DNA from: Actinomadura meyerae
GTDB taxonomy: Bacteria; Actinomycetota; Actinomycetes; Streptosporangiales; Streptosporangiaceae
NCBI RefSeq assembly: GCF_900188445.1
Contig: NZ_FZOR01000041.1
Location: 1-64,000, forward strand
DNA length: 64,000 nucleotides
Direction: 5' to 3'
In this document: positions 16,693 to 55,437 of the stretch, one piece after another
Layout of the letters: each line of letters opens with the position of its first letter
Numbering within the stretch: the stretch's first letter is position 1
Translations under genes and position numbers: made by a program
The notes under the pieces: model-generated
The model's database searches: none
Seen by the model: only the letters and a program-made list of their open reading frames with translations
Told to the model about the DNA's origin: nothing

Positions 16693-17058
16693 GCGCAGAA
16701 CACCTCTGCCCGGGGCGAGCCCCGCGCGGAGTCCGGGACGGAGGGTCGGGGACGGCCGTTGACTTTTCGTTCTCATCGTAAGGGATGAGACGCCGATGGC
16801 CGCCCCGAAGTGCGGAGAAGACCATTGGCGGGTCATAAAAGTCTGGCCATCACCGCACATCAGCGATCTAAACCAGCCCAATTCGGCCTGATGCGGTCAT
16901 GTTTCACCGGTTTTGGGACAGCCCTAAACTGGGCTCACGTGATCGTTTGAATGAATGTCACGCCAAGAGGTGAGGCAGGGGCGCAGAGTGGATATACCAT
17001 GTGCTATCCGTAGCATTTCTCAGCGGTTGTACACTTGTGTCCCAGAGTGGGGGCTAGG
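16693..17058. promoter_or_regulatory. Long divergent control region between fxsC and fxsT
   Basis: 366 bases without a credible gene and clearly more AT-rich than the flanks. Visible elements are AGCCC-TAAACT-GGGCT (around 16921-16937), GGATA-10 bases-TATCC (around 16990-17008) and TTGTACACTTGTGTC close to the fxsT start. Two divergent promoters are expected. No match to a known regulator box was recognised. Confidence 0.45.
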
Positions 17059-32254: not shown

Positions 32255-35200
32255 TCAGCGGCCCTGGTGGGTGTAGGCCGCCCAGGAGTACACGTCGTAC
32301 AGGGGGCCGTCCGGGTCGCCCTCGTCCTCTTCCATCGCGAGGAGCAACTGATCGGCCATGCCCTCCGGCGCCTCGCGGGACGGGTCGAGCATCCAGAGCT
32401 GCGCCGCCCGCAGAGCGTCGCGGGGGGACAGCCCCCGATGGAGATGCCGGTAGTAGACGAACATGAGCAGGGACGCCGCCCGGTCGGGGATCTTCCATCG
32501 CGAGCCCACGGCGGTGACCGGGCCCGCGGCGAGGATGGCCGTCGACAGGGTGAGCGCCTCGTCGTAGTCGCCCACGGCGAGGTCGCTGACGCAGGCGGCC
32601 GCGGTGACCCGGCCGCCCGGCGCGGCGGGGTCGCGGCCGTGCGCGGTCCGCAGGATCCGCTCGATCGTCAGCGGCTGGCCGCCCGCCAGGTGGAAGAACG
32701 CCGCCGTCGGCTCGTCCCCGGCGAAGGCGTGGCAGGCCAGGTGGACGTCCGACGCCCCCGGGCGGCCCGGCGCCGGGAAGCCTTCCAGCACCTCGTCCGG
32801 AGTGCCGTCGCCCGAGCGCCCGGTGAGGTCCTCGTCGCCGAGGAGGCGCGCCCCGGGGAAGAAGTGGCGACGTATCTCCTTGCATTCGATGGGGGCGTAG
32901 TAGAGGGTCCCGGACGTGTCGCTGACGATCAGCGGGTCGTCCCCGACCGGGCGGACGGGCCGCTGGGCGACGTCCACGAGCTGGCGTCCTGACACGGCGT
33001 AGGAGAAGACCGCGTCGGCGCAGGCGTAGCGCGGCGGGCCCTCCTCGCGGGGGCGCCGGCGGGCAGCGTGCCATGGCACGACGCTCAGCCTTCCCACCGG
33101 GACGAGCACCAGCCGCGGCTCCCGGCCCGGCCACTGGTCCGCGCAGAGCCGGAGCAGCGGCCGCATCACGGCCGTATGGGCCCAGTCGCACAGTGCGTCC
33201 AGGACCCGCCGCCAGCGGTTGGACGCTATGGCGTCGCGGTCGGCGAGTTCCTCGGGGGTCATGGACTGCACCGCGTTGCTCGCGTCGATGTACTCGTCCA
33301 GGATGCCGCTGTACTCGTCCATCAGGAGCGGCATCGAGAGCGGGAGCAGCCGGCCGTCCGCGGTGACGACGATGCCGGTGCCCGCTCTGCCCGGTACCGG
33401 CGGCAGCAGGTAGACCATCGCGTCGGCACCGGTCGCGGCCAGCGCCCGCGCGATGTCCGCCGTGGACGGCGGGTTGAGCAGGCGGGTCTCCGCTGAGCCG
33501 CCGGCGAGCGCGGCCAGCGCCCGGCGGCCCAGCTCGGACGGGACGGCCAGCGCGCCCTGCGCCGTGAGCAGCTCCGTCAGGTCCTGGCCGCGCTCCCACG
33601 GCCGGGTGCCGTACGCGTCGGGGGCGGCGCGCCATTCTGCGGCGAGCGGGCCGTGACCCGCGTCCGCCAGCAGGGACGGCACGTCGGCCGCGGAGGTCGC
33701 GGCGTGCAGGACGAGCCCCCGCCCGAGCTCCAGGGCGGTCACCGCGCCGCCGAGGTCGCCGTCCCGCACGTGCCAGTCGACGATCTGCTCCGCCTGCGAG
33801 TAGACCGCCCGCGCACGGGTGAGGGCCTGCCCGGTCCCCGTCTGGAGCAGGACGGCCTTGCCGTGCGCCCGCAGCGCCGCGAGACCGGCCTCGCGCGCGG
33901 CGTCGTGGCGCCCCTCCTCCCGGCGCGTCATGGCGAGCAGCATCCGCATCCCGGCCTCGATGTCGGGGTTGGGCCGCACGCCGGGATCCGCCAGCAGCCC
34001 TTCCAGCCGGGACGCGGCCTCGGCGTACCAGCCGGGGTCGCGGGTGAGCCCCCCGAGCGCGTACCGCGCGGCGGCGGCGAAGATCGCCAGCCGGAGCAGG
34101 GCGTTCGCGTCGCCCGTCCCCTCGTCCAGGCCGAGATCGGCGATCCGCATGGCCTCCTTGGCCGCCGTCCGGTCCTGCGTGCCCATCGCGATGAGCAGGT
34201 GCCCGCTGGCGGCGCGCACCAGCGTGTACGGCCGGGCCGGATGGCCGGGCGGCTGCTCGGCCAGGCCGGCGCTCAGATGATCCGCCGCCTCCAGGAGCGC
34301 GGCCGCGCCGCCGCCGCGGCCCGTCAGCCCGTGCACGATCATTCCGGTGCCGAGCTCGGTCCGCATGCGCGCCCGGTGCGGGTGCGATTCGGGCAGGGAG
34401 TCCAGCGCGGCGCGCATCTCCGCCACGCCGCGGCCGACGAGTTCGGCCCCGTCGCCGAACGCCCCGCGGACGATGTCGACCCCGGCCCGGCCCGCCCGGA
34501 GCAGCGCCGGCGAGTCGGGCGAGAAGTGGTCCTCGTCCGCGCCGGACCGCCGGAAGTACTCCGCGACGATCTCGCGGTAGTGCTCGGCGGCCCGCAGGTC
34601 CTCCAGGTCGCGGCTCTCGTTGTAGCGCCGCGTCAGCGCGCCCGCGAGGGACTCGGCCACGGTCACCCGGTCCCGGTCGTCCGGGGGAAGCTCCCGGTAC
34701 GCCGCCGTCAGGTGCCCGATCCCCTCGGCGAGGCCCGCGTCGTTCTGGCAGAGCATGATGCCGAGCGCGGCCCGTGTCCATTCCCGCCGCTCGGAGCCGG
34801 GGTCGTCGAGGGCCGCGCGCAGCAGGCCGATCGCGGTGGCGGTGTCGGCCGAGGACATGTCGTACGCCGACCGGGTCATCAGCCCGATCGCCACGTTCCG
34901 GATGAGCACGTCGCCGGGCGGGGTGCCGATGGGCAGCGTCTCCAGGGCGCGGGTCAGCCACGGCCCCGCGGCCCGCAGATCGGCCGCGTTCGAGGTGGCC
35001 TGGCCGCGCGCCGTGAGCAGCACCCCGATCAGGGCCGCGACGGTCGAGCACGCGTCCGGGTCGTCCCGCCAGTCGGGCTCGACCTCGATGAGCACGGCCG
35101 CGGCCCGCTCGATGTCGGCGAGGTCGGCGGCGCGGCCGCGGCGCGAGCGGGGCAGCCGGTCGTGCAGGGCGATCCCGAGCATGAGGCCGCTCAGCGTCCG

Positions 35201-36475
35201 GGCCTCCCCCGGTTCGAGCAGCTCCCACGCCTCCCCGGCGTGCTCGGCGATCCGGTCGAGGTCGTCGTCGGTCGCCGCGCCGTCGGCCCGCTTCGTGTAC
35301 GCGTAGGCGAGGAGGCCGGCGAGGGGCCCGCGGGCATCGTCGCGCGCCGCCGCGAGCGCGGCCCCGTAGTGCTCGATCGCCGCCGTGAAGCCCGCGCGGC
35401 GGCCGTCCGGGGACGGGTCGCGGTCGGCGCCGGCGAAATGCAGGTCGCCGAGCATCTCGCGGGCGTGCGCGGCCGTCGCCTCCCCGGCGCCGTCCAGCAG
35501 TTGCTCGTAGCGGGCGATGGCGGCGAGCCGGTCGTCCTCCGCGCCCCTCGCCTCGAAGCGCCCCCGCAGCGCGTCGGCGAGGTAGCCGATCGTCCCGGGA
35601 CGCGCTCCGGGGGCGCCGGCGACGCGGCCGAGCAGCTCCACCGCCCGCTCGGCGTCGCCGTCGCCGGGTTCGGGCGCGTCCGGCCAGGGATCGGTGCGGC
35701 GGTCCCAGTGCAGCTCTCCCAGGCGTCCCGTGACGCTCGACAGCGTCGCCTCGTCGGCGTGCCCGCCGGACTCCATGGCGGCCCGTAGCCGGGTCAGCAG
35801 GTCGATCGCAGCGTCGCGGTCCGCTCGGGCCAGGGCGATCTGGCCGTCGTCGGGGGCGTCGCCGGCGTCGAAGGCGTCGGCGAAGGCGAAGTAGCGGTGG
35901 TCGAAGCGGAGGGCCAGCGCCATGCCGTGCAGGTAGTCCAGCCACTGCCGCAGCGCGTCGCCGCCCGGGGAGTCGCCCGCCATGCGCCGGGCGCGTACGC
36001 AGTGGTCGATGGCCGCGTCCAGCTCGGCGCGCGGGACGTCCTCGTCACCGGCCATCCGTTCCTCGTACCTGTCGAGGAGCAGGGCGGCCAGGTCGGCGAG
36101 CGGTTCGCCGTCGTCCGGGTCCCCCGGGACCGACCGCAGCCAGGCGCGGAGGTGCTCGATCGCGGCGTCGCGGTCGGCCGCGGCACCGCCGAGGCGGTAC
36201 CGCTCGGCCCGCGCCTGCCCGGCGAAGGAGAGCGCGTCGGCGTGGCCCTCGTCGCCGGCGTCGAGGGCGCGGACGGCCCACTCGGTGCAGTCGATGACCT
36301 CGTCGAGGTCGGCGGCGGCCTCGGCCCGCTCCTCCGGCTCCGCGGACTCGTACCGTTCGGCCAGCGCGGTCGCCAGTTCCAGCCGCAGCGCCGCCTCGGC
36401 CCGGGGCCCGCCGGGCACCACGACGAGCCGGGTCCGCAGCCAGTTGACGTAGTCGTGCAGGTCCGCCCGCGTCAT
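32255..36475 (-). CDS. Giant TPR-CHAT protease, last gene of the eight-gene operon
   Basis: 1406 residues from MTRADLHDYVNWLR (GAGGTGAGG upstream). Residues 1-1000 are helical TPR-like repeats rich in Ala/Glu/Arg. The C-terminal about 350 residues are a CHAT domain: RLVLVPVGRLSVVPWHAA, catalytic His in DVHLACHAFAG, catalytic Cys in VTAAACVSDLA, then AGPVTAVGSRWKIPD and a closing VYSWAAYTHQG. CHAT proteases are cysteine proteases of the caspase/separase clan, switched on by partner sensing. Here the likely partners are kinase, FHA and AAA+ genes in the same operon. It is far larger than the CHAT protein at 2231. Confidence 0.85.
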   Translation of the reverse strand: MTRADLHDYVNWLRTRLVVVPGGPRAEAALRLELATALAERYESAEPEERAEAAADLDEVIDCTEWAVRALDAGDEGHADALSFAGQARAERYRLGGAAADRDAAIEHLRAWLRSVPGDPDDGEPLADLAALLLDRYEERMAGDEDVPRAELDAAIDHCVRARRMAGDSPGGDALRQWLDYLHGMALALRFDHRYFAFADAFDAGDAPDDGQIALARADRDAAIDLLTRLRAAMESGGHADEATLSSVTGRLGELHWDRRTDPWPDAPEPGDGDAERAVELLGRVAGAPGARPGTIGYLADALRGRFEARGAEDDRLAAIARYEQLLDGAGEATAAHAREMLGDLHFAGADRDPSPDGRRAGFTAAIEHYGAALAAARDDARGPLAGLLAYAYTKRADGAATDDDLDRIAEHAGEAWELLEPGEARTLSGLMLGIALHDRLPRSRRGRAADLADIERAAAVLIEVEPDWRDDPDACSTVAALIGVLLTARGQATSNAADLRAAGPWLTRALETLPIGTPPGDVLIRNVAIGLMTRSAYDMSSADTATAIGLLRAALDDPGSERREWTRAALGIMLCQNDAGLAEGIGHLTAAYRELPPDDRDRVTVAESLAGALTRRYNESRDLEDLRAAEHYREIVAEYFRRSGADEDHFSPDSPALLRAGRAGVDIVRGAFGDGAELVGRGVAEMRAALDSLPESHPHRARMRTELGTGMIVHGLTGRGGGAAALLEAADHLSAGLAEQPPGHPARPYTLVRAASGHLLIAMGTQDRTAAKEAMRIADLGLDEGTGDANALLRLAIFAAAARYALGGLTRDPGWYAEAASRLEGLLADPGVRPNPDIEAGMRMLLAMTRREEGRHDAAREAGLAALRAHGKAVLLQTGTGQALTRARAVYSQAEQIVDWHVRDGDLGGAVTALELGRGLVLHAATSAADVPSLLADAGHGPLAAEWRAAPDAYGTRPWERGQDLTELLTAQGALAVPSELGRRALAALAGGSAETRLLNPPSTADIARALAATGADAMVYLLPPVPGRAGTGIVVTADGRLLPLSMPLLMDEYSGILDEYIDASNAVQSMTPEELADRDAIASNRWRRVLDALCDWAHTAVMRPLLRLCADQWPGREPRLVLVPVGRLSVVPWHAARRRPREEGPPRYACADAVFSYAVSGRQLVDVAQRPVRPVGDDPLIVSDTSGTLYYAPIECKEIRRHFFPGARLLGDEDLTGRSGDGTPDEVLEGFPAPGRPGASDVHLACHAFAGDEPTAAFFHLAGGQPLTIERILRTAHGRDPAAPGGRVTAAACVSDLAVGDYDEALTLSTAILAAGPVTAVGSRWKIPDRAASLLMFVYYRHLHRGLSPRDALRAAQLWMLDPSREAPEGMADQLLLAMEEDEGDPDGPLYDVYSWAAYTHQGR

Positions 36476-36491
36476 GGCCTCACCTCTGACG

Positions 36492-37568
36492 TCATGGGGT
36501 CGCCTCCGAGTCGCCATCGCCCTGCGGCGGCGCGCTCTCCTGGCAGGGGGCGGCGGTTTCCGGCGCAGGCCATGACAGCGGGACCGCCGGATCGTCCGCC
36601 CAGCCGCCGAGGTACTCCGACAGCACCCGGCCCGCCGCGACGTCCCCCGTGGTGGACGTGGGCTGAGCGAACCCGACCGCGGTGTAGATCCGATCGCGGT
36701 AGCAGGTCACGAGCGCTTCGATGAGGTCGCAGTAGTTCTCCACCGCCTCCCGGACGCCCCGCATCAGCAAGGCGGTCACCAGTGCGACGCCCAGCACCCA
36801 GCCCACGGCGTACCGGGACGGGCCGAAGGTGGGCGTCCACAGGACGGCGGCCAGCGTCCACACCAGGTTCTGGCCGCGCAGCGTGACACGCCGCGACTCC
36901 TGGGCGAGCCGCGCCCGCGCGTCCGGCGGCAGCACCATCAGCAGGTGCTCCCAGCAGACGGTCAGGTTGAGGCCGTGCCGCCGCTGCACCCGTTCCACCA
37001 TCGCCGCGAGCGCGCAGCCGATGCGGGTGGGCGCCATCAGCGTGTCGGCCGCCGGGTACCGGTACAGCTCGCCGATCGCGTCCCGTTCGATCCGGCCGCG
37101 CAGCGCGTCCCGGGCCATCTCCCGCTCCGCGGCGATCAGGTCGTCGGGCAGGGCGGCCCGCTCGGGGCCGGGGGCCTGCGCCGCCCGGCGGCGGCGCGCG
37201 ATCTGGCGGCGCAGCAGCCACTCCCACAGCGGCCAGGCGGTCAGCCCGCCCGGCCGGGGCACGTCCCCCGCGATCACGTGGACGATCCGGGGCGTGGCCG
37301 CCGCGACCAGCAGCGCCGACCCGATCACCAGCGACCCCGCCAGGACGACCAGCGCCGCGTAGCCGACCGCGCCCGCCCCGTCCAGCCGGCACCAGGCGTG
37401 GCCCAGCGGGTCCTCCGGCCCGGCGGCCCGGCACGCGGTGGCGGTGCCGCCGCCGCTGACGAGCCGGGCGCTCAGGCCGATGGCCCAGAACGTCAGCGCC
37501 GCCGCCGCGACGTGCCCGGTCCACCGCTTCGTCCAGGGCCCGGCGAGCGACTCAAGAAGCTTGTCCAC
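36492..37568 (-). CDS. Membrane protein of the CHAT/kinase operon, family unknown
   Basis: 358 residues. Four hydrophobic segments in two pairs: VAAAALTFWAIGLSARLV, YAALVVLAGSLVIGSALLVA, LVWTLAAVLWTP and AVGWVLGVALVTALLM. Between them is a basic soluble stretch (WPLWEWLLRRQIARRRRAA). The N-terminal hydrophobic start is preceded by no signal peptide. The start overlaps the zinc-ribbon gene by 17 bases and its stop lies 16 bases before the CHAT start. It may anchor the complex at the membrane; nothing else identifies it. Confidence 0.7.
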   Translation of the reverse strand: MDKLLESLAGPWTKRWTGHVAAAALTFWAIGLSARLVSGGGTATACRAAGPEDPLGHAWCRLDGAGAVGYAALVVLAGSLVIGSALLVAAATPRIVHVIAGDVPRPGGLTAWPLWEWLLRRQIARRRRAAQAPGPERAALPDDLIAAEREMARDALRGRIERDAIGELYRYPAADTLMAPTRIGCALAAMVERVQRRHGLNLTVCWEHLLMVLPPDARARLAQESRRVTLRGQNLVWTLAAVLWTPTFGPSRYAVGWVLGVALVTALLMRGVREAVENYCDLIEALVTCYRDRIYTAVGFAQPTSTTGDVAAGRVLSEYLGGWADDPAVPLSWPAPETAAPCQESAPPQGDGDSEATP

Positions 37569-37827
37569 CCGCCCCTCCCGCGGGCGTCTGGGCGGCGGGA
37601 GGCGTCCGCGTCAGCACCTTGCCGTGCTCACCGCACCGGCCGCTGCCCAGCGACCCGTCGGGACGGGCGCGCTCCCTGGTCGGGCAGCCGGGCTCCGGGC
37701 AGTAGAAGTACGTCCCGGACCAGCCCGACCCGGCGCCCGGAGGCAGGATGTCACCCGAGCGGGTGCCGCTTCCGGGACGCCGCTTCTCCTCCGCGCTCCG
37801 GTCCTGCTCAACGCCTTCGTCGGTCAT
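37552..37827 (-). CDS. Small zinc-ribbon protein
   Basis: 91 residues from MTDEGVEQDRSAEEK; the first half is polar and disordered. The core YFYCPEPGCPTRERARPDG followed by RCGEHGKVL looks like a zinc ribbon with CX4C and C-G-E-H ligands. The same pattern opens the FHA protein at 40780-41322 (RCPQDPEGCPTSP, then CDTHKVKL). The operon therefore encodes two copies of one ribbon type, one free and one fused to FHA. Its role is probably protein-protein contact. Confidence 0.7.
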   Translation of the reverse strand: MTDEGVEQDRSAEEKRRPGSGTRSGDILPPGAGSGWSGTYFYCPEPGCPTRERARPDGSLGSGRCGEHGKVLTRTPPAAQTPAGGAGGQAS

Positions 37828-37858
37828 CCGTTCCCCCGTTTCCGAGCCGCCGGTGCGG

Positions 37859-40783
37859 TCACCGGTCGTCGACGACGAGATAGCCGAGCACCGCGACGGG
37901 CAGGAACAGCAGCAGGGCCGTCCAGAACGTGCCCGCGCCGCCGATCCCGGCCAGCCAGCGGGAGAGCCCCTCGCTGATCGGATTGATGAAGATGTGCAGC
38001 AGCCCGCCGAGCACTGAGTCGGCCTCGGGGCTCTCGCCCGCGAGCCAGTCGCGGAGGGCGGTGACGCCGCGATCGAACAGGTCCGGCCAGATCGCGATGA
38101 CGAGCATGGCGGCGAGGCCCGCATGGAAGACGTCCCGCGCCCGGTCGCGCCGCGCCCGCCGGCGCCGCGCCCCCCAGCCCGCGACCACCGCCAGCGGAAC
38201 GAGGATCGGCAGGTGCGCCACCGACACGTCCGCCGCCGCCCGTCCCGCGCCGGAGGTGTCGGCGAGCGGCACCTCGTGCGCGTAGACGGTGCGGATGATG
38301 ACGCACGTCCAGAGCAGCGCCGTACAGGACGCGAACACGACGGCCCCGGTTCCGACCGGCCGCTGCACCAGGGCGCGGGCGCGGACGAGCGGCTCGTAGC
38401 GCCCGCGGGCGCGGACGCCGCGCCGCATGGCGGCGCGCGCCCCGGTGCCGAGGAGGGCGGCGCAGATCAGCCCCAGCACCGCCACCGGCCCGATCCAGCG
38501 GCCGGGCACGGCGCCGAAGTCGGAGAGCAGGCCGGCCGCGAAGTCCGGCACCGGCAGCGCGTGGCTCACCGGCATCCAGCGCGGCAGGCACGCGGCGGTG
38601 AAGACGAGGACGCCGGTCACCGCGAGGAGCGGCGCATGGCGGCGCCACAGCGCGGCGATCAGGAGGGACAGCAGGAGGAGAGCCGGCAGCACCGCGACCG
38701 TGGCGTCCGCGCCCGCCCTGCCCAGTAAGGCGCCCGTCTGGGTGAGCTCCTCGGTCGGCTCCATCGTGATGTCGTCCCGGAAGGCCCTGCCCAGGACCGT
38801 CGCCGACCAGGTGCAGGCCATGAGCATGAGCAGTGCCGCCAGCGCGCCGAGCAGGCCGTAGCCCACCGCCTCGGCGGGCTCGGTCCCGATCCGCACCTTG
38901 TGCGCGGCCCTGCGGGCGATGTGCCCTTGGGCGGCCCGTTCGCGCAGCGCCTCGACCGTCGCGGCCAGGGCGCGTCCCTCCAGGCTCGCCGGATCCGCTC
39001 CGGCCGCTCGGGTCCTGAGGGCTCGCCACCACGCGGGCCCGCCGATCAGCCTGCCGCCGGTGAGCCGCAGGACGGTTCGCTGAGCGGTGCCGTCCCTCGT
39101 GACCGGGTGCGCGGACTCGCCCGCGCCCAGCGTGAGGGCGATCGCCGTCATGTAGGCGTTCGCACGCTCGCGCCCGTTCAGCGGGTCCCAGGTCATCGGG
39201 CTCTCGCCGGGCCCGGCCCGGACCTCGGCGCGCAGGGACGCGACACGGTCCTCGACCAGCCGCATGATCACCGGCACGTCGTCGGCGACCCGCAGCAGGA
39301 CGGCGCACCGGTCCTTGGGACGCCCCTGGTGGTCGCACCCGGCGTGCCCGCACGGCCGCCGCGCCGCGATGCGCAGCGCGTCCGAACCGAACAGCCGGGC
39401 GTAGACCGTGTCACCGGTGCCGGCATGCCCGGCCAGGCCCACGTCGTCGAGCCGGATCCCGTGCAGGGTGGGGACCACGTCCGGCGCGTAGGTGACGACG
39501 AAGTCCAGCACCAGCAGCGGGGCGGTGTCCGGGCTCACCGCGCCCAGCGTGCGGAGGTCGACGAGCGGGTTCCCGACGTCCTCCAGCAGCCATTTGGCGA
39601 AGTCGTTCCCCCGCGCGAGGAGCCACCGGGCCGCCTCCTCGGGCTCCCCGGCCATCGCCTCGGCGAGCGCCCGGGGGTTGTCGTAGGGGGCGCCGTGGAA
39701 GGTGATCGGGTTGGTGGCGCGCCGGGTGCCGTGCCCGGGGAGGACGGTCGGCCGGATGACGTCCGGGTCCTCCCCGGCCAGCCAGGCGCGGACCTGGGCG
39801 CCGCCCCAGCGGTCGTCGGGCTGCCGGGTGAACAGGCCCGCGAGCAGGCTGCGCCAGCGCGGGTCGGTGACGCCGTCCAGCGGCATCTCCACGTCCAGGA
39901 CGAACGTCTCCCGCACGCCGTGCTCGGTGATGTCGTTGGCGTGGTGCGTCGCGCCGGTCAGCATCAGGTAGACGATCTCGCCGAGCGACCACCACGGCGA
40001 CTCGGGCCGGCGCAGCCCGATCACGCCCTCCGGCGCGGTGTAGCCGGGAGCCGCGATGACCTGCCCGTTCATCCCGGTGACGGTCGCGCGCGCGACGCCG
40101 CCGAAGTCGGTCACCACGATCTGCTCGGACCCGTCCGCCGCCCGCCGGAACATCAGGTTGTCCGGCTTGAAGTCGATCGGGATCCGGTCGACGGGGTTCC
40201 GCCAGTACTCCAGCGCTTCGGCGAGCGCGGCCAGCAGGGCGCGGACGCGGTCGTCCGGCATCGGCCCGCCGGCGCCCTCGGCGAGGATCACATCCTCCAG
40301 GGAGGTGCCGAAGTACTCCATCTCGACCCAGCCGACCGTCCCGTACGGGGTGGTGACCTTGCCGAAGCCGCCCAGGCGCGGGGCGTGCCGGTCATAGTCG
40401 TGCTGCTTGAGGTGGCGGAGCAGGTCGAGGTCGATGGGCCGTTCCGCCCAGTGGACCTTGACGGCGACGGTCTCGCCGTCGGACCGGCGCCGCGCCTCCC
40501 ACACCACGCCCTCCGTGCCGCGTCCGCGCTCCCCGTGCGGCTCGTACTCGGCGAGCAGTTCGGGCGGGAACTGCGCGGCGCCGCGCAGCGACTCACCCAC
40601 CTCCGCGGCCCCGTTTCCCTCCCCTTGGACGGCGGTGCGCGGGCTGCCGGTGGTGTCCCCGTGCTGGATCATGGTCGGCGGGCTGCCCGTCCCGCCTTCC
40701 CCCTGGACGGTGGTCTCGGGGCTGCCCTGGCGGACGGTGGGCGGGCTGGCCAGGCGCTCGGGCCCGTCATCGGGCGGGGTCAT
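37859..40783 (-). CDS. Transmembrane Ser/Thr kinase with threonine-repeat N terminus
   Basis: 974 residues. Residues 10-52 hold four degenerate repeats (SPPTVRQG, SPETTVQGEGG, SPPTMIQHGD, SPRTAVQGEG). The kinase core (about 75-330) has EGVVWEA, VAVKVHW, catalytic IDFKPDNLMF (the HRD His-Arg is lost but D, K and N remain), DFGGVA and GYTAPEGV. A middle region carries CGHAGCDHQGRPKDRC. The last 300 residues contain about nine membrane helices. The gene overlaps the FHA gene (ATGA). The Thr repeats look like phosphorylation sites that the FHA partner could read. Confidence 0.88.
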   Translation of the reverse strand: MTPPDDGPERLASPPTVRQGSPETTVQGEGGTGSPPTMIQHGDTTGSPRTAVQGEGNGAAEVGESLRGAAQFPPELLAEYEPHGERGRGTEGVVWEARRRSDGETVAVKVHWAERPIDLDLLRHLKQHDYDRHAPRLGGFGKVTTPYGTVGWVEMEYFGTSLEDVILAEGAGGPMPDDRVRALLAALAEALEYWRNPVDRIPIDFKPDNLMFRRAADGSEQIVVTDFGGVARATVTGMNGQVIAAPGYTAPEGVIGLRRPESPWWSLGEIVYLMLTGATHHANDITEHGVRETFVLDVEMPLDGVTDPRWRSLLAGLFTRQPDDRWGGAQVRAWLAGEDPDVIRPTVLPGHGTRRATNPITFHGAPYDNPRALAEAMAGEPEEAARWLLARGNDFAKWLLEDVGNPLVDLRTLGAVSPDTAPLLVLDFVVTYAPDVVPTLHGIRLDDVGLAGHAGTGDTVYARLFGSDALRIAARRPCGHAGCDHQGRPKDRCAVLLRVADDVPVIMRLVEDRVASLRAEVRAGPGESPMTWDPLNGRERANAYMTAIALTLGAGESAHPVTRDGTAQRTVLRLTGGRLIGGPAWWRALRTRAAGADPASLEGRALAATVEALRERAAQGHIARRAAHKVRIGTEPAEAVGYGLLGALAALLMLMACTWSATVLGRAFRDDITMEPTEELTQTGALLGRAGADATVAVLPALLLLSLLIAALWRRHAPLLAVTGVLVFTAACLPRWMPVSHALPVPDFAAGLLSDFGAVPGRWIGPVAVLGLICAALLGTGARAAMRRGVRARGRYEPLVRARALVQRPVGTGAVVFASCTALLWTCVIIRTVYAHEVPLADTSGAGRAAADVSVAHLPILVPLAVVAGWGARRRRARRDRARDVFHAGLAAMLVIAIWPDLFDRGVTALRDWLAGESPEADSVLGGLLHIFINPISEGLSRWLAGIGGAGTFWTALLLFLPVAVLGYLVVDDR

Positions 40784-41322
40784 GGCGCGCTCCTGAGTTC
40801 GCCGTTCTCATCGATCTCGAACACCGGCACCTCGACGTCCAGACCGAGCCGAAGCGTGTCGCCCGGACGCAGCGGCAGCGGCGTCACGGCCCGCTTGCCG
40901 TTGACGTAGGTGCCGTTGGTGGAACGCTGGTCGGCGACCCAGAGGGTCTCGGCGTCCCAGTACAGCCGCGCGTGGTGGCGGCTGATCTGCTCGTACTCGG
41001 CGAGGCCGTCGACCTTCGCGCAGTCGGGCTCGTCCCGTCCGAGCAGCAGGCCCTCGGGCTTCACCACGAGCAGGTCGCCGAGCAGGTGCAGCGCGATCAC
41101 CGGACGGCGGCCGGACGGGGCGGAGGACGCCGCGCCGTCCGGCTGCTGGTACACCGTGCGCGGCGTGCCCGGCGCCGGCCCGGTATCCGCGCGCGGCTCC
41201 TCCGCGGGCGTCTCGACGCGCGCCGGTTCCAGCTTCACCTTGTGGGTGTCGCAGGAGCGCAGCACGGGCGATGTCGGGCAGCCCTCCGGGTCCTGCGGGC
41301 AGCGGAAGATCATGGTCGCCAT
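40780..41322 (-). CDS. Zinc-ribbon/FHA-domain protein
   Basis: 180 residues; GAGGGGG lies before the ATG at 41322. An N-terminal ribbon (FRCPQDPEGCPTSP, CDTHKVKLEP) is followed by a Pro-rich linker and an FHA domain (about 85-175) with GRDEPDC, ISRHHARL and STNGTYVNGK, the phosphothreonine-binding loops. FHA domains bind pThr peptides. The gene overlaps the kinase start by four bases and the radical SAM stop by 13, so stoichiometric production is expected. It is the natural reader of the kinase N-terminal threonine repeats. Confidence 0.9.
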   Translation of the reverse strand: MATMIFRCPQDPEGCPTSPVLRSCDTHKVKLEPARVETPAEEPRADTGPAPGTPRTVYQQPDGAASSAPSGRRPVIALHLLGDLLVVKPEGLLLGRDEPDCAKVDGLAEYEQISRHHARLYWDAETLWVADQRSTNGTYVNGKRAVTPLPLRPGDTLRLGLDVEVPVFEIDENGELRSAP

Positions 41323-41948
41323 GTGACCCCCTCGAACGTGACACCGCGGGCGCGCAGCGCCCGCTCCAGCCTTGCCATCGCGCCGCGCGCCGGGACGCCC
41401 GCGAACCACACGTTCGCGCCGTCGACCGAGAACTGCATCGGCGGGCGTTCCGGTTCGTGGTCCAGGTGGCGGTCGTAGCGGGCGTGGCCGAGCTCGGTCC
41501 GCGGCGTCAGCACCTGGTTGGCCGACCCCCGCCAGATCAGCCGGGTGGGACGGGCCGCGTCGTACCGGCCGGTGATGACGGCGTCGGCCCGGCGCAGCGG
41601 CGCCATGTCCACCTCGTCCGGCTCGTAGCCGGTGTAGACGAGCAGGTCGGCCTCGCGGCCCAGCTCGTCGCGGACGGCGGCGGCCATCTCCAGCAGCTCC
41701 GCCAGCTCGTCCGGCTGGGCCAGGGGCTCTCCCCCGCTGACCGTGAGCCCGTCCATCCCGTGCTCCAGCGCCTCGCGCCACATCCGCTCCAGGGTGGGGA
41801 GCGCCAGGTCCGAGCCGCCGGACGGGCTCCAGGTGTCGCGGGCCAGGCACCCCGTGCACGCCAGCGGGCAGCCCTGGAACCAGACGACCATCCGGCGTCC
41901 CGGGCCGAGCGCGGTGATGGGGCAGGACACCCGGCTCACGCGGGGCAT
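41310..41948 (-). CDS. Radical SAM activase-like protein (NrdG type)
   Basis: 212 residues, a short radical SAM fold without SPASM. VWFQGCPLACTGCLARDTW contains CX3CX2C; DGLTVSGGEPLAQPDEL is the GGEP motif; DLLVYTGYEPDEV follows. Size and order resemble glycyl-radical activating or NrdG-like single-cluster proteins. No glycyl-radical enzyme (ribonucleotide reductase or pyruvate formate-lyase type) is in the window. It overlaps both neighbours by 13 bases, so it belongs to the operon. A protein- or nucleotide-modifying role is inferred. Confidence 0.85.
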   Translation of the reverse strand: MPRVSRVSCPITALGPGRRMVVWFQGCPLACTGCLARDTWSPSGGSDLALPTLERMWREALEHGMDGLTVSGGEPLAQPDELAELLEMAAAVRDELGREADLLVYTGYEPDEVDMAPLRRADAVITGRYDAARPTRLIWRGSANQVLTPRTELGHARYDRHLDHEPERPPMQFSVDGANVWFAGVPARGAMARLERALRARGVTFEGVTWRP

Positions 41949-43912
41949 CGGTCCACCTTCAGCCGCCAGGTGTCGCCCTCGGGCTCCATGTCGAGCACCG
42001 TGATCTCCTCACCGGGGGTGGGCGGACGGTCGAACAGCTCGGCCGCCAGGGGGTTCACCAGGGCCGCCTCGACGGCGTTCAGCACGCCCCGGCCGCCGTG
42101 GTCGAGCCGGGCCCTGGCCGCGAAGCGCAGCGTCTCGAAGGCCTCGTCGCCGATCGTCAGGCGCGCGCCGTGCCGGTCGGCCACCCGGCCCACGACGGAG
42201 TCGAGCGCGCGGTTGAGGATCCGCGGCACGTGCTCGGGCTGGATGAAGTCCATGACGATGAAGTTGTCGCCGAAGCGGTTGCGCAGCTCGGGCCGCCGGA
42301 TCGTCTCGTCGAAGAACGTCCGGAACGCCTTGTCGAGGGCCTGCCGCACCTTCTCGGGGTCGTCGGTGTACTTCAGCCTGCGCTCGATGTCACCGGTCTT
42401 GGTGACGACCCCGAGGTTGGAGGTGAACACGAGGACGGTCTCGGTGAAGTGCACGGTGGCGCCCCGGCCGTCGGTGAGCCGGCCGTCCTCCAGGATCTGC
42501 AGGAACAGGTCGTAGAGCCGGGGGTGCGCCTTGTCGATCTCGTCGAACAGCAGCACGCTGATCGGGTTGGCGCGCACCGCGTTGATCAGCTCGCCGCCCG
42601 CGTCGAACCCGACGTAGCCGGGCGGCGCGCCGATCAGCCGGTCCCGCGCGTGCTCCTCGGCGAACTCGCTCATGTCGAACCGGATCGGCTCGGCGTCGTC
42701 GCCGAGGATCAGCTTGGCGATGCCCTTGGCCAGCTCGGTCTTGCCGACCCCGGTCGGGCCGGACAGGAACAGCACGCCGCGCGGCCGGTTCGGCGAGCTG
42801 GACGCCTGCGCGCCGGTGAGCCCGGTGACCGAGCGCTGGAAGATCTGCAGGGTCCGCGCGACCGCCCGCTCCTGGCCGATGACCTGCGCGTTGAGGATCT
42901 TCTCCCCCCGCTCGATCTTGGCGCGCAGCGCGGCGTCCGCCCACGGGTTGTCCAGCACGCCGACCCGGTAGAGCCGGACCGCCTCCTCCAGCCGCTCCAG
43001 CGGCAGGCCGCGGTGCTCGGCCATCCGGCCGATCGCCATCAGCTCCACGAGCTGCATCCCGTGGGTGATCCCGGCGAGCCGCCGGGCGGCCTGGGCGCGC
43101 TGCTCCGGCCCGGCGCCCGGGTCGACGTCGCGGAGCGCGTAGGCGGCCACGCGCTCCCGCTCGCCGAGCAGCGGCTCGGGGATCGCGATGACCCGCAGCC
43201 GCCGGCTGTCGGCGCCGAACTCGGGGGCGAGGTGGTCCTGCCGCTCGGTGACCCAGAAGATCGTGTTGTACGGCGTGACGCCCGGTCCGCGCACGGGCAT
43301 CGCGGTGTGCCCGAGCGCCTCCGCCACGGTGAACAGGTCGCGGCCGAGGTCGCCGGCCTCGGAGTCGCCGCGGCCCACGCGGGCGGCGTAGGGGAAGACG
43401 AGCCCGATCGCGGCACCGCGCCAGCGCACCACGTCCACCAGGACCTGCCGGATCCGGGACAGCCGGACGGCGTCGGGGTTCTCACCGCGTCCGGGACGCG
43501 CCGCGTCGGCCTGGGACATCTCCCGCAGCGACTCGGGGCACGCGGGCTGCCCCGAGTCGGTCAGGGACAGCGGCCACAGCACCATCAGCTGGTCCAGCGG
43601 GCTGTGCTCGCCGAGCGCGCCGTAGCCGTGCCCGCGGCACACCCGCATGATGACGTCCTGCAGCGAATGCATGACGATCTCGCCCGAGCCGTCCTCGGCC
43701 GGCAGCGGGTACTGGTCGCGGACGTTGCCGGTCAGCAGGATCTGCGGATGGGTCAGCAGCGCCATGTCCAGTTCGCGGACCCAGGCGGGCAGGGCGGCGG
43801 CGCCGGGCGGCACCGCTCCTCCGGCGGGCACCGCTCCTCCAGTCGTCGGCGCCCCTCCGGTCGCCGTGGCTCCACCGGTCATCGGGGCCGTCACCGGCAC
43901 GTCAGCGGTCAT
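41936..43912 (-). CDS. Clp/Hsp100-like AAA+ ATPase
   Basis: 658 residues. After a Gly/Thr/Ala-repeat start, residues 45-320 look like a degenerate first AAA module (ILLTGNVRDQYPLP, NTIFWVTERQDHLAPEF, RVIAIPEPLLGERERVA) without a P-loop. The second module is intact and ClpB-like: VIGQERAVARTLQIFQRSV, Walker A GPTGVGKTELAK, PPGYVGFDAGGEL pore loop, Walker B LLFDEIDKAHP, FTSNLG sensor and RNRFGDNF. It probably unfolds or remodels a partner, for example to present it to the CHAT protease. It overlaps the coiled-coil gene by 11 bases. Confidence 0.88.
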   Translation of the reverse strand: MTADVPVTAPMTGGATATGGAPTTGGAVPAGGAVPPGAAALPAWVRELDMALLTHPQILLTGNVRDQYPLPAEDGSGEIVMHSLQDVIMRVCRGHGYGALGEHSPLDQLMVLWPLSLTDSGQPACPESLREMSQADAARPGRGENPDAVRLSRIRQVLVDVVRWRGAAIGLVFPYAARVGRGDSEAGDLGRDLFTVAEALGHTAMPVRGPGVTPYNTIFWVTERQDHLAPEFGADSRRLRVIAIPEPLLGERERVAAYALRDVDPGAGPEQRAQAARRLAGITHGMQLVELMAIGRMAEHRGLPLERLEEAVRLYRVGVLDNPWADAALRAKIERGEKILNAQVIGQERAVARTLQIFQRSVTGLTGAQASSSPNRPRGVLFLSGPTGVGKTELAKGIAKLILGDDAEPIRFDMSEFAEEHARDRLIGAPPGYVGFDAGGELINAVRANPISVLLFDEIDKAHPRLYDLFLQILEDGRLTDGRGATVHFTETVLVFTSNLGVVTKTGDIERRLKYTDDPEKVRQALDKAFRTFFDETIRRPELRNRFGDNFIVMDFIQPEHVPRILNRALDSVVGRVADRHGARLTIGDEAFETLRFAARARLDHGGRGVLNAVEAALVNPLAAELFDRPPTPGEEITVLDMEPEGDTWRLKVDRCPA

Positions 43913-45212
43913 GGCGCCGCTCCCTCGCCCGCTCGTTCGTCCGCCCGGCGGAGTGCCTGCGGCGGCGCCTCGACCGGGTCTGCTCGACCGCCTGCCAGGA
44001 CTCCTCGGCGGCGGCCGGCGGCGGCATCTGGCCCGGTCGCAGGCGGTAGGACCGCCGGATGTCGAGCCCGCGCCAGTCCTTGGCCAGGTCCCGCACCTTG
44101 TCGTTGAAGCTCATGTCGCAGAACGCCTGCTGGGCGGCCGTGTCGACGAGCGGGTCGGGCTCCTCGCCGGGTGCGAGCACCACGCTCGCGCGCATGCTCC
44201 CCCGGCTTCCCTGCATGGTGACGCGCAGGGCGTAGCGGTCGGCGCGCCAGGCGCCCGGCGGGGCGCCGGCGGCGTGCTCGGCCCGCGCCAGCCGGTCGCG
44301 GAAGTCCTCGCCGAGGTCGACGATCCGGTCTCCGTCCGCGGCCAGGACGGTGGCGAAGTCCTCGCCGACCTCGCAGCCGATCTCCCGCAGCGCCTCGGCC
44401 GTGGCCGCCGCGACCTTGTCCGCGGCCCGCTCCCGGGCGGCGGCGCGGTCCGCCTCGGCGACCGCCTCGGTGACCAGGTCCGAGACGGCCTCCAGGTCCG
44501 ATCCGTGGTCGATGGCGGCGAGCAGGCGGGGCCGGTCGGCCTCGGCGGCGTGCCGGGCCAGGGCGCGCAGCCCCGCCCTGGTCCGCTCGTCCTGGTCGCT
44601 CTTCGCACGGCGCTCGATGGACGCGACCACGCGCTCCTCCAGCGTGCGCAGCGCCGTGCGCGCGGCCTGCACGGTCCGAGCCGTGGTGATGCCGGACGTC
44701 AGCGCGGCGAGCCCTTCGAGGTCGTCGGCGTGGCAGCGCGCGGCCTCCTCGGTCAGCAGGTCCTCGGCCCGGACCAGCAGCGACTCCCTGACCTCGGTGA
44801 CGTCCCTCTCCCGCAGCGCGGAGCCCTCGCTCCGCGCCGGCGCCCCGCCGTCCGCCGCGCGGGTGCGTGCGGCCGCGGGCCGCGACGTGCGCGGGGGCCG
44901 GTGCCGCGACAGCCGTTCCGCCAGCTCACGCGTGGCCAGCCGGCCGGACTCGTCACGGAGCGTCCCGACCACCGCCTCGGCCGCGGCCACCCGCGCGGCC
45001 AGCGCGTCCGCGCTCTCGCCGGTGCCCGCCTCGGCGATGTCGGACGCCCCGGCGCGCAGGTCGCGGCTCCCCTTCCGGCGCAGCCGCTTCTCGAGCTGCC
45101 GGGCCTCGGCGCGCAGCTCGGCGAGGCGCGCGGCGAGTTCGCGGCGCCGGGCCTGCTCGCGCGCGGCCTCGGCCGCCGCGTAAATCCAGCCATAGCCTTC
45201 GGAACCGCTCAT
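43902..45212 (-). CDS. Coiled-coil protein, first gene of the eight-gene operon
   Basis: 436 residues from MSGSEGYGWIYAAAEAAREQ. Residues 8-330 are almost all helical with heptad-like Ala/Leu/Arg/Glu patterns (ARLAELRAEARQLEKRLRRK, ARAALRTLEERVVASIERRA form). A small compact region follows (YALRVTMQGSRGSMRASVVL, then AFCDMSFNDKVRDLAKDW), and the tail is very basic (RSRRRRRHS, ERARERRHDR). No family is recognised. It leads the operon behind a good promoter and may be the sensor or scaffold; the basic tail could touch nucleic acid or membrane. Confidence 0.75.
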   Translation of the reverse strand: MSGSEGYGWIYAAAEAAREQARRRELAARLAELRAEARQLEKRLRRKGSRDLRAGASDIAEAGTGESADALAARVAAAEAVVGTLRDESGRLATRELAERLSRHRPPRTSRPAAARTRAADGGAPARSEGSALRERDVTEVRESLLVRAEDLLTEEAARCHADDLEGLAALTSGITTARTVQAARTALRTLEERVVASIERRAKSDQDERTRAGLRALARHAAEADRPRLLAAIDHGSDLEAVSDLVTEAVAEADRAAARERAADKVAAATAEALREIGCEVGEDFATVLAADGDRIVDLGEDFRDRLARAEHAAGAPPGAWRADRYALRVTMQGSRGSMRASVVLAPGEEPDPLVDTAAQQAFCDMSFNDKVRDLAKDWRGLDIRRSYRLRPGQMPPPAAAEESWQAVEQTRSRRRRRHSAGRTNERARERRHDR

Positions 45213-45277
45213 GAGACCCCCTGTCTCCCCGTCGCGCAACGGCCGGCGCGGCTTCCCCCGGCCGCCCGGCGCGAATG

Positions 45278-45305
45278 ATGATAAGACCGAATTCAGGTTT
45301 TTCAA
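45278..45305 (-). promoter_or_regulatory. Promoter of the eight-gene operon
   Basis: Read leftward: TTGAAA (45305-45300), a 16-base spacer AACCTGAATTCGGTCT and TATCAT (45283-45278). It stands in a local AT-rich pocket and ends 66 bases before the first start codon. Both hexamers match the housekeeping sigma consensus well. Confidence 0.65.
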
Positions 45306-45424
45306 TGGGAATGCCGAGGCCACTAAAAGCCACAAATGATCATCAGCCTGGACGGAACGACCCGACATTCGTCCGGGATCCGCCGTACTGTAGTTATTCG
45401 CCGATATAGCCGGGGAGGTCGCGC

Positions 45425-46057
45425 ATGGCGGTACCGGACGCCATCAAGGCGCTTGCCGAGCATTGGGACGACACGGTCGGTGACCTGGACGAAGACCGGT
45501 TGCGCGCCATCGCCGCCGCCGGTCCGCCGGGCGACTCCGGCGACGCGGCCGTCCGCGCGGCCGCCCGGCGGGTGGCCGACGTCGTGGCCGCGGCGCTGCC
45601 CCGGCGGCACCCGGTGCACCGCGCGCTGACCGGGGGGACCCGGCTCGCCGTCGGCGACTGGACGGGCGCGAGGCCGGATCTGGCCGCGGTCACCGCCCTG
45701 GCCGCGGGCGCGCTGGCCGAGCGCGAGGCCGACGCGCGGCTCCTGGCCGCCCCGATGGTGCCGTGGGACGAGGTGCGCCGCCGGGGCATCGGCCTCGACG
45801 CCGACGACCTGATCCGGCTGGCCCCGCCGTCCGGCGGCGACCGCGCCCCGGCGTTCCAGTTCGACGACGCGGGCGCGCCCCGCCCGGTGGTGCTCGCGGT
45901 CAACCGGCTGCTCGCGGTCCGCGACGACCCGTGGGGCGTCGCCGACTGGTGGCTGGGCGGCAACGCCTGGCTCGCCGGCGTCCCCGCCGACCTCCTCGGC
46001 GAGGTCGACGACGAGACGCTGGTGAGCGCCGCCCGGGCCGAGACGGCGGTGGGCTGA
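45425..46057 (+). CDS. RES-associated antitoxin (Xre/ParS-MbcA-like)
   Basis: 210 residues; GGGGAGG precedes the ATG. The C-terminal part carries the antitoxin end-domain: AFQFDDAGAPRPVVLAVNRL, then DDPWGVADWWLGGNAWLAG and PADLLGEVDDETLVSAA. In RES-Xre pairs this domain plugs the toxin active site. The N-terminal 120 residues are helical without an obvious HTH, so DNA binding is uncertain. The RES gene begins three bases after the stop. Confidence 0.8.
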   Translation: MAVPDAIKALAEHWDDTVGDLDEDRLRAIAAAGPPGDSGDAAVRAAARRVADVVAAALPRRHPVHRALTGGTRLAVGDWTGARPDLAAVTALAAGALAEREADARLLAAPMVPWDEVRRRGIGLDADDLIRLAPPSGGDRAPAFQFDDAGAPRPVVLAVNRLLAVRDDPWGVADWWLGGNAWLAGVPADLLGEVDDETLVSAARAETAVG

Positions 46058-46060
46058 GCC

Positions 46061-46732
46061 GTGCCGTTCACCGCGCCCCCGACCGCGGCCAAGACGACCC
46101 CGAACCGCACCGTGCTGCCGGCCGGCACGCGGCTGTGGCGCGTCCACCGCGGCACCCGCGGCCCCGGCGACTTCAAGCCGGTCCCCGCCGACCCGCACTT
46201 CGGCGGCGGCCGCTTCGACAGCATCCCCGGCGACGACGAGTACCCCTACCTCTACGCGGCGCCGGACCCGCGGACCGCGCTGCTGGAGACCCTGGTCCGC
46301 AGCATCCCGTTCGACGACCGCGGCGTCCGCTACCTGCGCCGCGCCGCGCTCGCCGGCATGGTGATCTCCGCCGTGGAGAGCACGTCCGACCTCGCGCTGA
46401 TCTCGCTGCTTACCAGCGCCGACCTGGCCGCCGCCTGCCAGGACGAATGGCTGATCCACGCCGAGCCGCACGAGTACCCGCAGACCCGGCGGTGGGCCCG
46501 GTGGCTGCGCGGGCACGCGCCGTGGGGCCAGGGCCTGCTGTGGCCGTCGCGGCGCGACATCGGCCGGCCGTCCGCGATGCTGTTCGGCGACCGCGTCGAC
46601 CCCGGCGAACTCGCCCCGGTGCCCGGTTCGGCGGTCGCGCTGGACGACGCCGCGGGCGCCCGCTGGCTGAACGAGCAGCTCGCGCCGTACCGGATCCGGG
46701 TCAAGCCGCCCCGTTCCCCACGCCGCGGCTGA
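46061..46732 (+). CDS. RES-domain toxin (NAD+-degrading)
   Basis: 223 residues from GTG at 46061. RES motifs are present: LPAGTRLWRVHRG (Arg), GGGRFDS (Arg), YPYLYAAPDPRTALLETL (Tyr and Glu), with Ser/Asn-rich residues missing in the short C-terminal part. RES toxins cleave NAD+ and stop growth unless bound by the antitoxin. Its gene is the second of a two-gene operon divergent from the CHAT/kinase operon. Linker and C-terminal end are basic (PRSPRRG). Confidence 0.85.
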   Translation: MPFTAPPTAAKTTPNRTVLPAGTRLWRVHRGTRGPGDFKPVPADPHFGGGRFDSIPGDDEYPYLYAAPDPRTALLETLVRSIPFDDRGVRYLRRAALAGMVISAVESTSDLALISLLTSADLAAACQDEWLIHAEPHEYPQTRRWARWLRGHAPWGQGLLWPSRRDIGRPSAMLFGDRVDPGELAPVPGSAVALDDAAGARWLNEQLAPYRIRVKPPRSPRRG

Positions 46733-46845: not shown

Positions 46846-47931
46846 TCAGGGCAAGGCGGTCCGCTCGCGGTCGCGGGCGCGGAGCCCCTTCATGACGGCT
46901 TCCGCCGTGGCGGCGCTGCGGGCGATGAGGTGGACGTCCCACTCGCCGGACCGCATCTCCGGTTCGAGGGCGCCCCACAGGTAGGCGAAGGCGGTGTGCG
47001 GGGGCAGGCCGCCGCGGCCGGCGCCGAACACCGGGAAGCACAGCGAACGCAGCGACGGCTCGTGGCGCGCGCGCTCGTCACGTGCCAGCGCGAACACGTT
47101 GCGGACGGCGCGGACGACCGCGGATGCTTCGACGTCGTAGGTGTCGGTCCGGGGACGGGGCACCGCGACGGCCGCGTGATAGACGCGCTTGACGCCCTGG
47201 GCCCTCAGCTCACCGGGCGAGGTGGGGACGACGGTGCCCGCGAGGAGCGGGATGCCCTCTCGTCCTTCCTTGCGCAGCCATTCATGCAGCTCGTCCTGCA
47301 GCACGTCCTTGGAGATGGCCCCCATCGCGTCGCGCGTCGCCGCGGCACTGCGCAGGCTGGCGGAGAACGTGGAGCGGAACGTCTTGGACATCTCCAGGTA
47401 CACGTTCTCGGACGAGACCAGGACGTCGACGCCGTGCAGGGTCTCCACGGGCTTGCGGTGCAGCGTCACCGCGCCCGCCGGCACGCTCACCTCGACACTG
47501 CCGCCCAGCGGGACGCCACCGGTGTCGGGCAGGGCGGCGGGGCACAGGTCCAGGATGCGCTGCGCCAGGTTGTCGATGACCAGGCGTTCCTGGCGCTTGC
47601 GGAACCGCTCGACGCTGACGCCGTAGACGGCGGCGGCCCGGCTGCGGCGGTCCTGGGCGGGCCAGTCGCGGGTACCGGGCACGAGGCCGAAGGTGTAGGC
47701 CGTCGCGGTGTCGAGGTTGCCCGCGAGGCCGGTCGCGGCGCGCTCGATGACGCGGGTCAGCGACGAGCGCACGCGGTCGTCGCCCACGGGGAGGCCCAGT
47801 GCCATGGCCGCGGCGCTCAGCGCGGGGAGGTCGACCTCGTGCAGGCGCAGCAGCCCGCGCTCGCGCACGGCGCGCAGGTCGGCGACCAGCGCGGCGTGGC
47901 CGAATGAGGCATGGCTGGTTTCGGAGGGCAT
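46846..47931 (-). CDS. Macro-domain protein with helical N terminus
   Basis: 361 residues from MPSETSHASFGHAAL; no strong ribosome site, so the start is tentative. Residues 1-160 are helical (DRVRSSLTRVIERAATGL, QERLVIDNLAQRIL). From about 175 a macro domain follows: VDVLVSSENVYLEMSK, GIPLLAGTVVPTSPGEL, GVKRVYHAAVAVP and LCFPVFGAGRGGLPP, the ADP-ribose-binding loops. Macro domains bind or remove ADP-ribose and act as readers or reversers in NAD-linked conflict. It lies next to the RES pair, convergent with the toxin gene. Confidence 0.8.
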   Translation of the reverse strand: MPSETSHASFGHAALVADLRAVRERGLLRLHEVDLPALSAAAMALGLPVGDDRVRSSLTRVIERAATGLAGNLDTATAYTFGLVPGTRDWPAQDRRSRAAAVYGVSVERFRKRQERLVIDNLAQRILDLCPAALPDTGGVPLGGSVEVSVPAGAVTLHRKPVETLHGVDVLVSSENVYLEMSKTFRSTFSASLRSAAATRDAMGAISKDVLQDELHEWLRKEGREGIPLLAGTVVPTSPGELRAQGVKRVYHAAVAVPRPRTDTYDVEASAVVRAVRNVFALARDERARHEPSLRSLCFPVFGAGRGGLPPHTAFAYLWGALEPEMRSGEWDVHLIARSAATAEAVMKGLRARDRERTALP

Positions 47932-55359: not shown

Positions 55360-55437
55360 GTGGTCGGCGGCGCGATATCGCGGATAGTGTCGGGCGGCAC
55401 GGGCGCTTGGGAATTCACCGAACCGGGGTGTTGTGCG

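Follow-up and report, generated by a model that had tools for sequence, protein, structure and literature searches.

A locus of Actinomadura meyerae was analyzed computationally within a 64,000-nucleotide stretch of contig NZ_FZOR01000041.1 (positions 1 to 64,000, here called the window). The locus comprises eight leftward genes on the minus strand (g1 to g8 in operon order, 32255-45212), which encode, among others, a membrane kinase, a ClpB-like AAA+ ATPase, a radical SAM protein and a CHAT protease, together with a divergent gene pair (45425-46732) for a proposed antitoxin, termed the partner, and a RES-domain protein, and then a gene for a Macro-domain protein. The recurrent element in this arrangement is a cassette of partner, RES and CHAT, usually with Macro, whose neighbours vary between an AAA+/radical SAM module, a C14 caspase and Hsp70. 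This gene association is well supported, and the locus suggests a bacterial system of self-shutdown or immunity that has yet to be described.

The partner was used as bait in 295 Streptomyces genomes, a sample centred on G365 (Streptomyces sp. Root431), and its profile was found at 45 places in 39 genomes. The flanks, ~9.5 kb on either side or less where a contig ended, were scored for companion genes with tblastn (1e-6). A RES gene was present at all 45 places, CHAT at 43 and Macro at 41, followed by kinase (20), radical SAM (19), C14 caspase (18), AAA+ (17), coiled coil (15) and FHA (12); the AAA+ count becomes 21 with L038-L040 and L047. For comparison, 35 CHAT genes were counted in 11 whole genomes, partner loci included, equivalent to a background of ~0.7% per 20 kb. 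Eighteen of the 45 loci carried the caspase, 21 carried a kinase/AAA+/radical SAM module, none carried both and six carried neither (Fisher p 8e-8, uncorrected for relatedness). The caspase assignment was confirmed by Pfam in both proteins scanned, and one caspase locus, L088, also holds a relative of the coiled-coil protein. A further five partner loci had CHAT with neither the caspase nor the kinase/AAA+/radical SAM module. These tallies therefore define the cassette as partner-RES-CHAT, usually with Macro, in changing company.

Nine further partner places were found in Actinomadura. CHAT was present at all nine (at one of them at 2.7e-7 only), RES at eight (L098 being the exception) and Macro at five, with L099 and L100 sharing one Macro gene. 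A kinase or radical SAM gene accompanied three of these places (L098, L100 and L101), and at L095 and L096 an Hsp70 gene (3.1e-93 and 2.8e-96, respectively) lies beside partner, RES and CHAT. L096 also contains two CHAT genes and a TerD-like gene (1.4e-4, below the cut-off). Across a phylum sample the partner profile was found in 6 of 396 genomes, counting A. meyerae and three distant weak matches, and no tblastn match to the partner was obtained at 1e-5 in 72,556 plasmid records.

Loci of the same type as the window were collected by a scan of species genomes with exact peptide patterns of the AAA+ N-terminal module, which is not exhaustive and returned 10 loci; G006, a genome of the same genus, added another. 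The window-type set numbers 11 (the window, L012-L016, L018-L021 and L028), L017 being cut off and L030, which equals L021, being counted once. Genes g1 to g5, the partner and RES were each present in 11/11 of these loci, CHAT in nine and Macro in three. Of the two loci lacking CHAT, L014 has none in its stretch and L016 ends at a contig edge. CHAT in L012 lies upstream of g1, with g1 on one side and the partner-RES pair on the other; the AAA+ gene of this locus, which comes from a metagenome-assembled genome, is split over two reading frames (L012 9986-11844). A search with the AAA+ protein itself gave 5863 relatives at 1e-60, of which the best 120 are listed, and ordinary Clp proteins are probably among the others.

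An initial sequence-only reading of the window had described eight leftward genes with overlapping junctions behind one promoter, and this layout stands. The gaps from g1 to g8 are -11, -13, -13, -4, +31, -17 and +16 bases, so that five of seven junctions overlap. A single promoter-like site (TTGAAA-16-TATCAT, 45278-45305, minus strand) was found within 45150-45480, compared with a mean of 0.1 (standard deviation 0.3) in shuffled sequence. It lies inside the 212-base spacer between g1 and the divergent partner gene, downstream of an alternative g1 start at 45368. The same reading had taken the eight genes as the unit, stopping one gene pair short, and this was rejected because the zinc-ribbon gene g6 and the supposed 4-helix gene g7 are inconstant, whereas partner and RES recur as regularly as the AAA+ gene does. 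Its expectation that all eight families recur in distant actinomycetes held for six of them (in Streptomyces, Kitasatospora, Nocardia/Lentzea, Catenulispora and Actinomadura), the Kitasatospora recurrence having no CHAT alongside, and was not supported for the full eight. Its AAA+-fed protease and radical SAM modifier are retained as hypotheses.

The partner (210 amino acids; 45425-46057, plus strand) adjoins RES in all window-type loci. The RES protein (223 amino acids; 46061-46732, plus strand) matched PF08808 at 6.4e-20, and residues R27, R51, E76 and S163 are invariant in 11/11 sequences. In the parts of PMC9503650 and PMC11535050 that deal with them, RES proteins are NAD+ phosphorylases of toxin-antitoxin pairs, and the RES gene here is accordingly proposed as a candidate NAD+-destroying toxin. 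A sequence search with the C-terminal half of the partner led to Xre/MbcA-like proteins encoded beside RES genes, and the same half gave a weak predicted-fold match to NatR, the antitoxin of the RES toxin NatT; the partner is a putative RES antitoxin. No Pfam antitoxin model recognized the partner in the Pfam scans, and that form of assignment was set aside. Two relatives, P0169 and P0187, are named 'DUF2384 domain-containing' in UniRef, which Pfam did not confirm. When solved structures were searched by sequence, neither the partner nor its bridging relatives yielded a useful match; for RES there were only weak ParT matches amid chance matches to antibodies, and for the RES protein of L090 none. 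The RES protein of L018 carries a fused TIR domain, and L019 aligns with the L018 fusion over the same region. The Macro-domain protein (46846-47931, minus strand; PF01661 at 5.4e-5) has ~361 amino acids from an ATG at 47931, longer starts being possible.

On the other side of the spacer, g1 (43902-45212, minus strand) encodes a coiled-coil-like protein of 436 amino acids, or 488 from the in-frame ATG at 45368, with no Pfam match; its homologue lies directly upstream of the AAA+ gene in 11/11 window-type loci, the window included. The g2 product (658 amino acids; 41936-43912, minus strand) is a ClpB/ClpC-like AAA+ ATPase, as judged from an AAA_2 match at 1.8e-43, Walker motifs and a structure model compared by Foldseek. 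Against ClpC and ClpB chains the model aligned over ~650 columns with TM 0.39-0.49 and an rmsd (root-mean-square deviation) above 10 A, a match in domain order alone. The first module had been read as degenerate, correctly so: Walker A and B patterns are missing from it in 21/21 sequences of alignment A1, the window included, and the second module has both. No ClpP-type loop pattern was found outside the pore motif in the 21 sequences, and the g2 protein is therefore more likely to be a remodeller than a feeder of ClpP.

The g3 product (212 amino acids; 41310-41948, minus strand) is a NrdG-like radical SAM protein, with Fer4_12 at 3.2e-27 and the NrdG model at 4.5e-25, the latter below the cut-off of that model; C27, C31 and C34 are kept in 12/12 sequences. 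The g4 product (180 amino acids; 40780-41322, minus strand) combines a zinc-ribbon-like N terminus, recognized by its Cys and His residues in the sequence, with an FHA domain (5.8e-16). The g5 product (974 amino acids; 37859-40783, minus strand) is a Ser/Thr kinase (Pkinase 1.6e-15) with eight hydrophobic segments by hydropathy, in which K109, D204, N209 and the DFG motif D226-F227-G228 are conserved in 11/11 kinases. The Thr repeats ascribed to this membrane kinase were borne out by four T-x-x-Q repeats in its N-terminal tail (T16, T24, T37 and T50; 40625-40738, minus strand), against 0.62 expected (p 0.001). Such repeats were enriched at p 0.05 in 7/11 window-type tails, the exceptions being L012 (PTVVR twice), L013 (one TxxQ), L014 (p 0.08) and L020, in which FHA and kinase are joined in one protein. 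In the five paralogous kinases examined, T-x-x-D/E repeats stood in place of TxxQ in all five. The repeats are proposed as putative FHA docking sites.

The small g6 protein (91 amino acids; 37552-37827, minus strand) is zinc-ribbon-like by its Cys and His residues, has no Pfam match and, by tblastn at E 1e-3, no counterpart in the window-type loci searched. The g7 membrane protein (358 amino acids, GTG start; 36492-37568, minus strand) had been read as a 4-helix protein, but just two hydrophobic segments exceeded the threshold; it is optional, with homologues in 3/11 window-type loci and also in L032, L033 and L035. The g8 product (1406 amino acids; 32255-36475, minus strand) matched CHAT PF12770, a caspase-like protease family, at 5.3e-33 and is a predicted CHAT cysteine protease with a His-Cys dyad, His1249 being present in 8/8 and Cys1295 in 6/6 sequences that reach those positions. 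The tetratricopeptide repeats (TPRs) once attributed to it were not recovered, Pfam giving CHAT alone at E 0.1.

The AAA+ protein was also used as bait in Streptomyces, in a survey drawn like that of the partner and taken as the same sample since the genome handles seen coincide. At 1e-120 its profile matched 22/295 genomes, and the sole window-type locus among the 22 was that of the chosen centre, G365 (L013). Stretches of twenty other AAA+ loci plus that of G641 were examined. Fourteen stretches (L038-L051), in which gene order differs from that of the window, each carried kinase, AAA+, FHA and Macro; as cut, 13 of them included radical SAM, 10 included both partner and RES, and nine included CHAT. 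For L038-L040 and L047, partner, RES and CHAT lie just outside the stretch and are covered by L076-L079. Six others (L032-L037) had no partner or RES; CHAT was present in four of these, three of which also had a relative of g7. Overall, the partner was found within ~13 kb of the AAA+ gene in 16/22 AAA+-positive genomes. The window-type AAA+ was found in 3/65 Actinomadura genomes, and the AAA+ profile at 1e-100 in 6/296 genomes of a class sample, A. meyerae being included in both counts.

A related AAA+ gene is present in 65/65 Actinomadura genomes; its surroundings were inspected in L024 and, in another genus, L022. L024 (G000:C42:182000-201900) lies in the A. meyerae genome itself and is a DUF4282-kinase-coiled coil-AAA+-radical SAM-FHA set with no RES or CHAT match, beside a translation-GTPase-like gene that we take to be typA. 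A. meyerae holds both types of Thr repeat, TxRD in the L024 set and TxxQ in the window. Beyond actinomycetes, an AAA+-radical SAM pair was found on plasmids; three of 20 records were inspected, from Rhizobium (L052), Acinetobacter (L053) and Moellerella (L054). The genes beside the pair encode helicase-like proteins (MkoA or PDC-S37 by PADLOC), PIN proteins or kinase-helicases; in L054, an integrase, ArdA and a restriction subunit lie nearby. Because of these neighbours, the plasmid contexts favour a defence role for the AAA+-radical SAM pair, unproven for the window. The 371-amino-acid protein upstream of AAA+ in L053 had no similarity to the window coiled-coil protein at the threshold used, so that their equivalence is positional only. 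The three plasmid sets are possibly a separate defence system. As regards viral carriage, none of 49 pattern matches to the AAA+ N-terminal module was confirmed.

We judge the chances evenly balanced that the locus is a system of two parts, serving conflict or self-shutdown, in which an activator part (membrane kinase, FHA protein, coiled-coil protein, ClpB-like AAA+ remodeller and NrdG-like radical SAM enzyme) would act on an effector part (antitoxin-like partner, NAD+-destroying RES toxin, CHAT protease, and Macro as a putative binder or hydrolase of ADP-ribose derivatives) through a cascade from kinase to NAD+ loss. A trigger would activate the kinase, its TxxQ tail would be phosphorylated and the FHA protein recruited; the FHA and coiled-coil proteins would then recruit the AAA+ machine. 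This machine, perhaps once a subunit has been modified by the radical SAM enzyme, would remodel or deliver either the CHAT protease or the complex of partner and RES; the partner would be cleaved or extracted, and the freed RES would phosphorolyse NAD+, leading to growth arrest or cell death, with Macro binding or removing the ADP-ribose-1''-phosphate product. The best-supported order would thus run from kinase through FHA, AAA+ (with coiled coil and radical SAM) and CHAT to loss of the partner, active RES and NAD+ loss. What was computed is gene content, co-occurrence, intact catalytic residues, repeat enrichment, the FHA-kinase fusion and the RES-TIR fusion; we infer every causal step, including the cascade arrows, what triggers the cascade and what the radical SAM enzyme does in it.

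A more specific form of this proposal is put forward tentatively, with confidence short of even. The locus may represent a new class of programmed shutdown, in which a CHAT protease would free an NAD+-phosphorolysing toxin from its antitoxin under the control of exchangeable chaperone- or caspase-type activators. The gate in the window would be a phosphothreonine-coded kinase-FHA pair with the ClpB-like remodeller and the radical SAM enzyme, and the second kinase-FHA set in the same genome, having TxRD rather than TxxQ, would keep the two circuits insulated.

The cascade could instead be a dormancy or developmental switch that senses envelope or nutrient stress, with RES lowering NAD+ reversibly and Macro clearing the product, rather than phage defence. 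The ubiquity of the related AAA+ gene among the 65 congeners, in L024 within a RES-free kinase-AAA+-radical SAM-FHA set, would fit such a switch, as would the formation of persisters by NatT through NAD depletion, described in part of PMC11535050. We regard it as doubtful, given that the RES-bearing form is patchy, at 3/65 congeners (A. meyerae among them) and 1/295 Streptomyces (the chosen centre), and that related AAA+-radical SAM pairs sit on proteobacterial plasmids in the company of helicase-like, PIN and, in L054, integrase, ArdA and restriction genes. A second possibility is that AAA+, and not CHAT, removes the partner, so that kinase-gated unfolding frees RES and CHAT is a parallel effector cutting other host or phage proteins. 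The intact second AAA+ module without a ClpP-type loop pattern is consistent with this, and L014 has RES, partner and AAA+ and no CHAT in its 21-kb stretch. Against it, partner-RES-CHAT without AAA+ in the stretch is common (18 loci with the C14 caspase and five with neither module), CHAT is therefore the more constant companion of RES, and we consider removal by AAA+ unlikely. Finally, that partner-RES is an ordinary addiction module stabilizing the locus and unconnected to the kinase-protease part, in keeping with the title of PMC7280312, by which chromosomal toxin-antitoxin pairs can be selfish, is very improbable because a free-standing addiction pair would not follow a single family of proteases, as seen here for CHAT in 43/45 partner loci against ~0.7% expected and Macro in 41/45, with differing gene orders.

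Several known systems share parts of the proposed two-part system. In the threonine-phosphorylation pathway (TPP) of type VI secretion, the membrane Thr kinase PpkA acts with Fha and the Clp-class ATPase ClpV. The window likewise brings together a membrane Thr kinase, an FHA protein and a Clp-class ATPase, but adds a radical SAM enzyme, a protease and a toxin pair, and no type VI structural genes were found among the eight operon and 10 neighbouring proteins. Craspase, the TPR-CHAT protease of type III-E CRISPR, resembles the g8 product in its large size, its CHAT domain at the C terminus and its conserved His and Cys. It differs in that the proposed substrate here is a toxin-antitoxin pair and the neighbours are kinase/FHA/AAA+/radical SAM, C14 caspase or Hsp70; no CRISPR protein and no Cas7-11 (RAMP) Pfam family occurs among the same 18 proteins. 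With the RES-Xre, MbcTA and NatRT pairs, the locus shares a RES protein with invariant Arg, Arg, Glu and Ser, an antitoxin-like gene directly upstream of it and the weak NatR-like predicted fold of the partner C-terminal half. The active-site residues named for NatT in the relevant part of PMC11535050 include two Arg and a Ser, and also Tyr and Asn, of which Arg and Ser were compared here. In contrast to those pairs, the partner falls outside the antitoxin models of Pfam and has an additional, helical half at its N terminus; it is associated with a CHAT protease, often with Macro, and with varying activators.

The NTP-dependent conflict systems of Kaur et al. 2020 (PMC7159879) also couple a chaperone-type NTPase to effectors in multicellular actinobacteria, and passages of that paper name Macro, kinase, FHA, caspase, Hsp70 and radical SAM domains among their parts. 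Those systems are described there as built on MoxR-vWA or double-GTPase modules, whereas a ClpB-like AAA+ protein of the AAA_2/ClpB class and a NrdG-like radical SAM enzyme occur here, with no vWA among the eight operon and 10 neighbouring proteins; the main text of that paper contains neither RES nor CHAT as a whole word. As for Mokosh and PDC-S37 of PADLOC, the Rhizobium relative L052 fuses kinase-like and helicase-like parts beside the AAA+-radical SAM pair and L053 has a MkoA-like protein, but no such helicase is found among the eight operon proteins. PADLOC (2023) gave partial AAA+ and kinase matches for these eight, including one kinase-region match to MkoA (0.0043), and a marginal viperin match; neither PADLOC nor NCBIfam gave a full-length assignment.

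Three other regions of the window hold genes of note. The region 2231-5999 (minus strand) encodes a second CHAT protein (925 amino acids; CHAT 1.2e-39), which has TPRs, and a TPR protein upstream of it; this CHAT protein is the strongest of three CHAT matches in the A. meyerae genome. A 1319-amino-acid protein (17035-20994, plus strand) matched TPR strongly and both TIR and AAA_16 weakly, and resembles a TIR-NTPase-TPR immune receptor. In a 392-amino-acid protein (55360-56538, plus strand), an FHA domain was matched at 8.9e-6 and an NYN ribonuclease very weakly, at 0.13.

The sequence-only reading had not recognized the full set as a named system, and no paper with this gene composition was found among the matches listed in the open-access PMC literature, a scope that excludes preprints; PMC7159879 and PMC8195603, in their relevant parts, describe other systems. 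The locus provides candidate functions for several unnamed protein families and a natural case of one effector cassette beside differing activators (AAA+/radical SAM, caspase or Hsp70). The Thr repeats of the kinase tails would offer a readable phosphothreonine code, usable for FHA specificity. The findings also raise the question of what a NrdG-like radical SAM protein does beside a Clp-type ATPase, a pairing that spans actinomycetes to proteobacterial plasmids. If the proposed two-part system is correct, caspase-like proteases and NAD+-destroying toxin-antitoxin pairs would be united in one circuit of multicellular bacteria.

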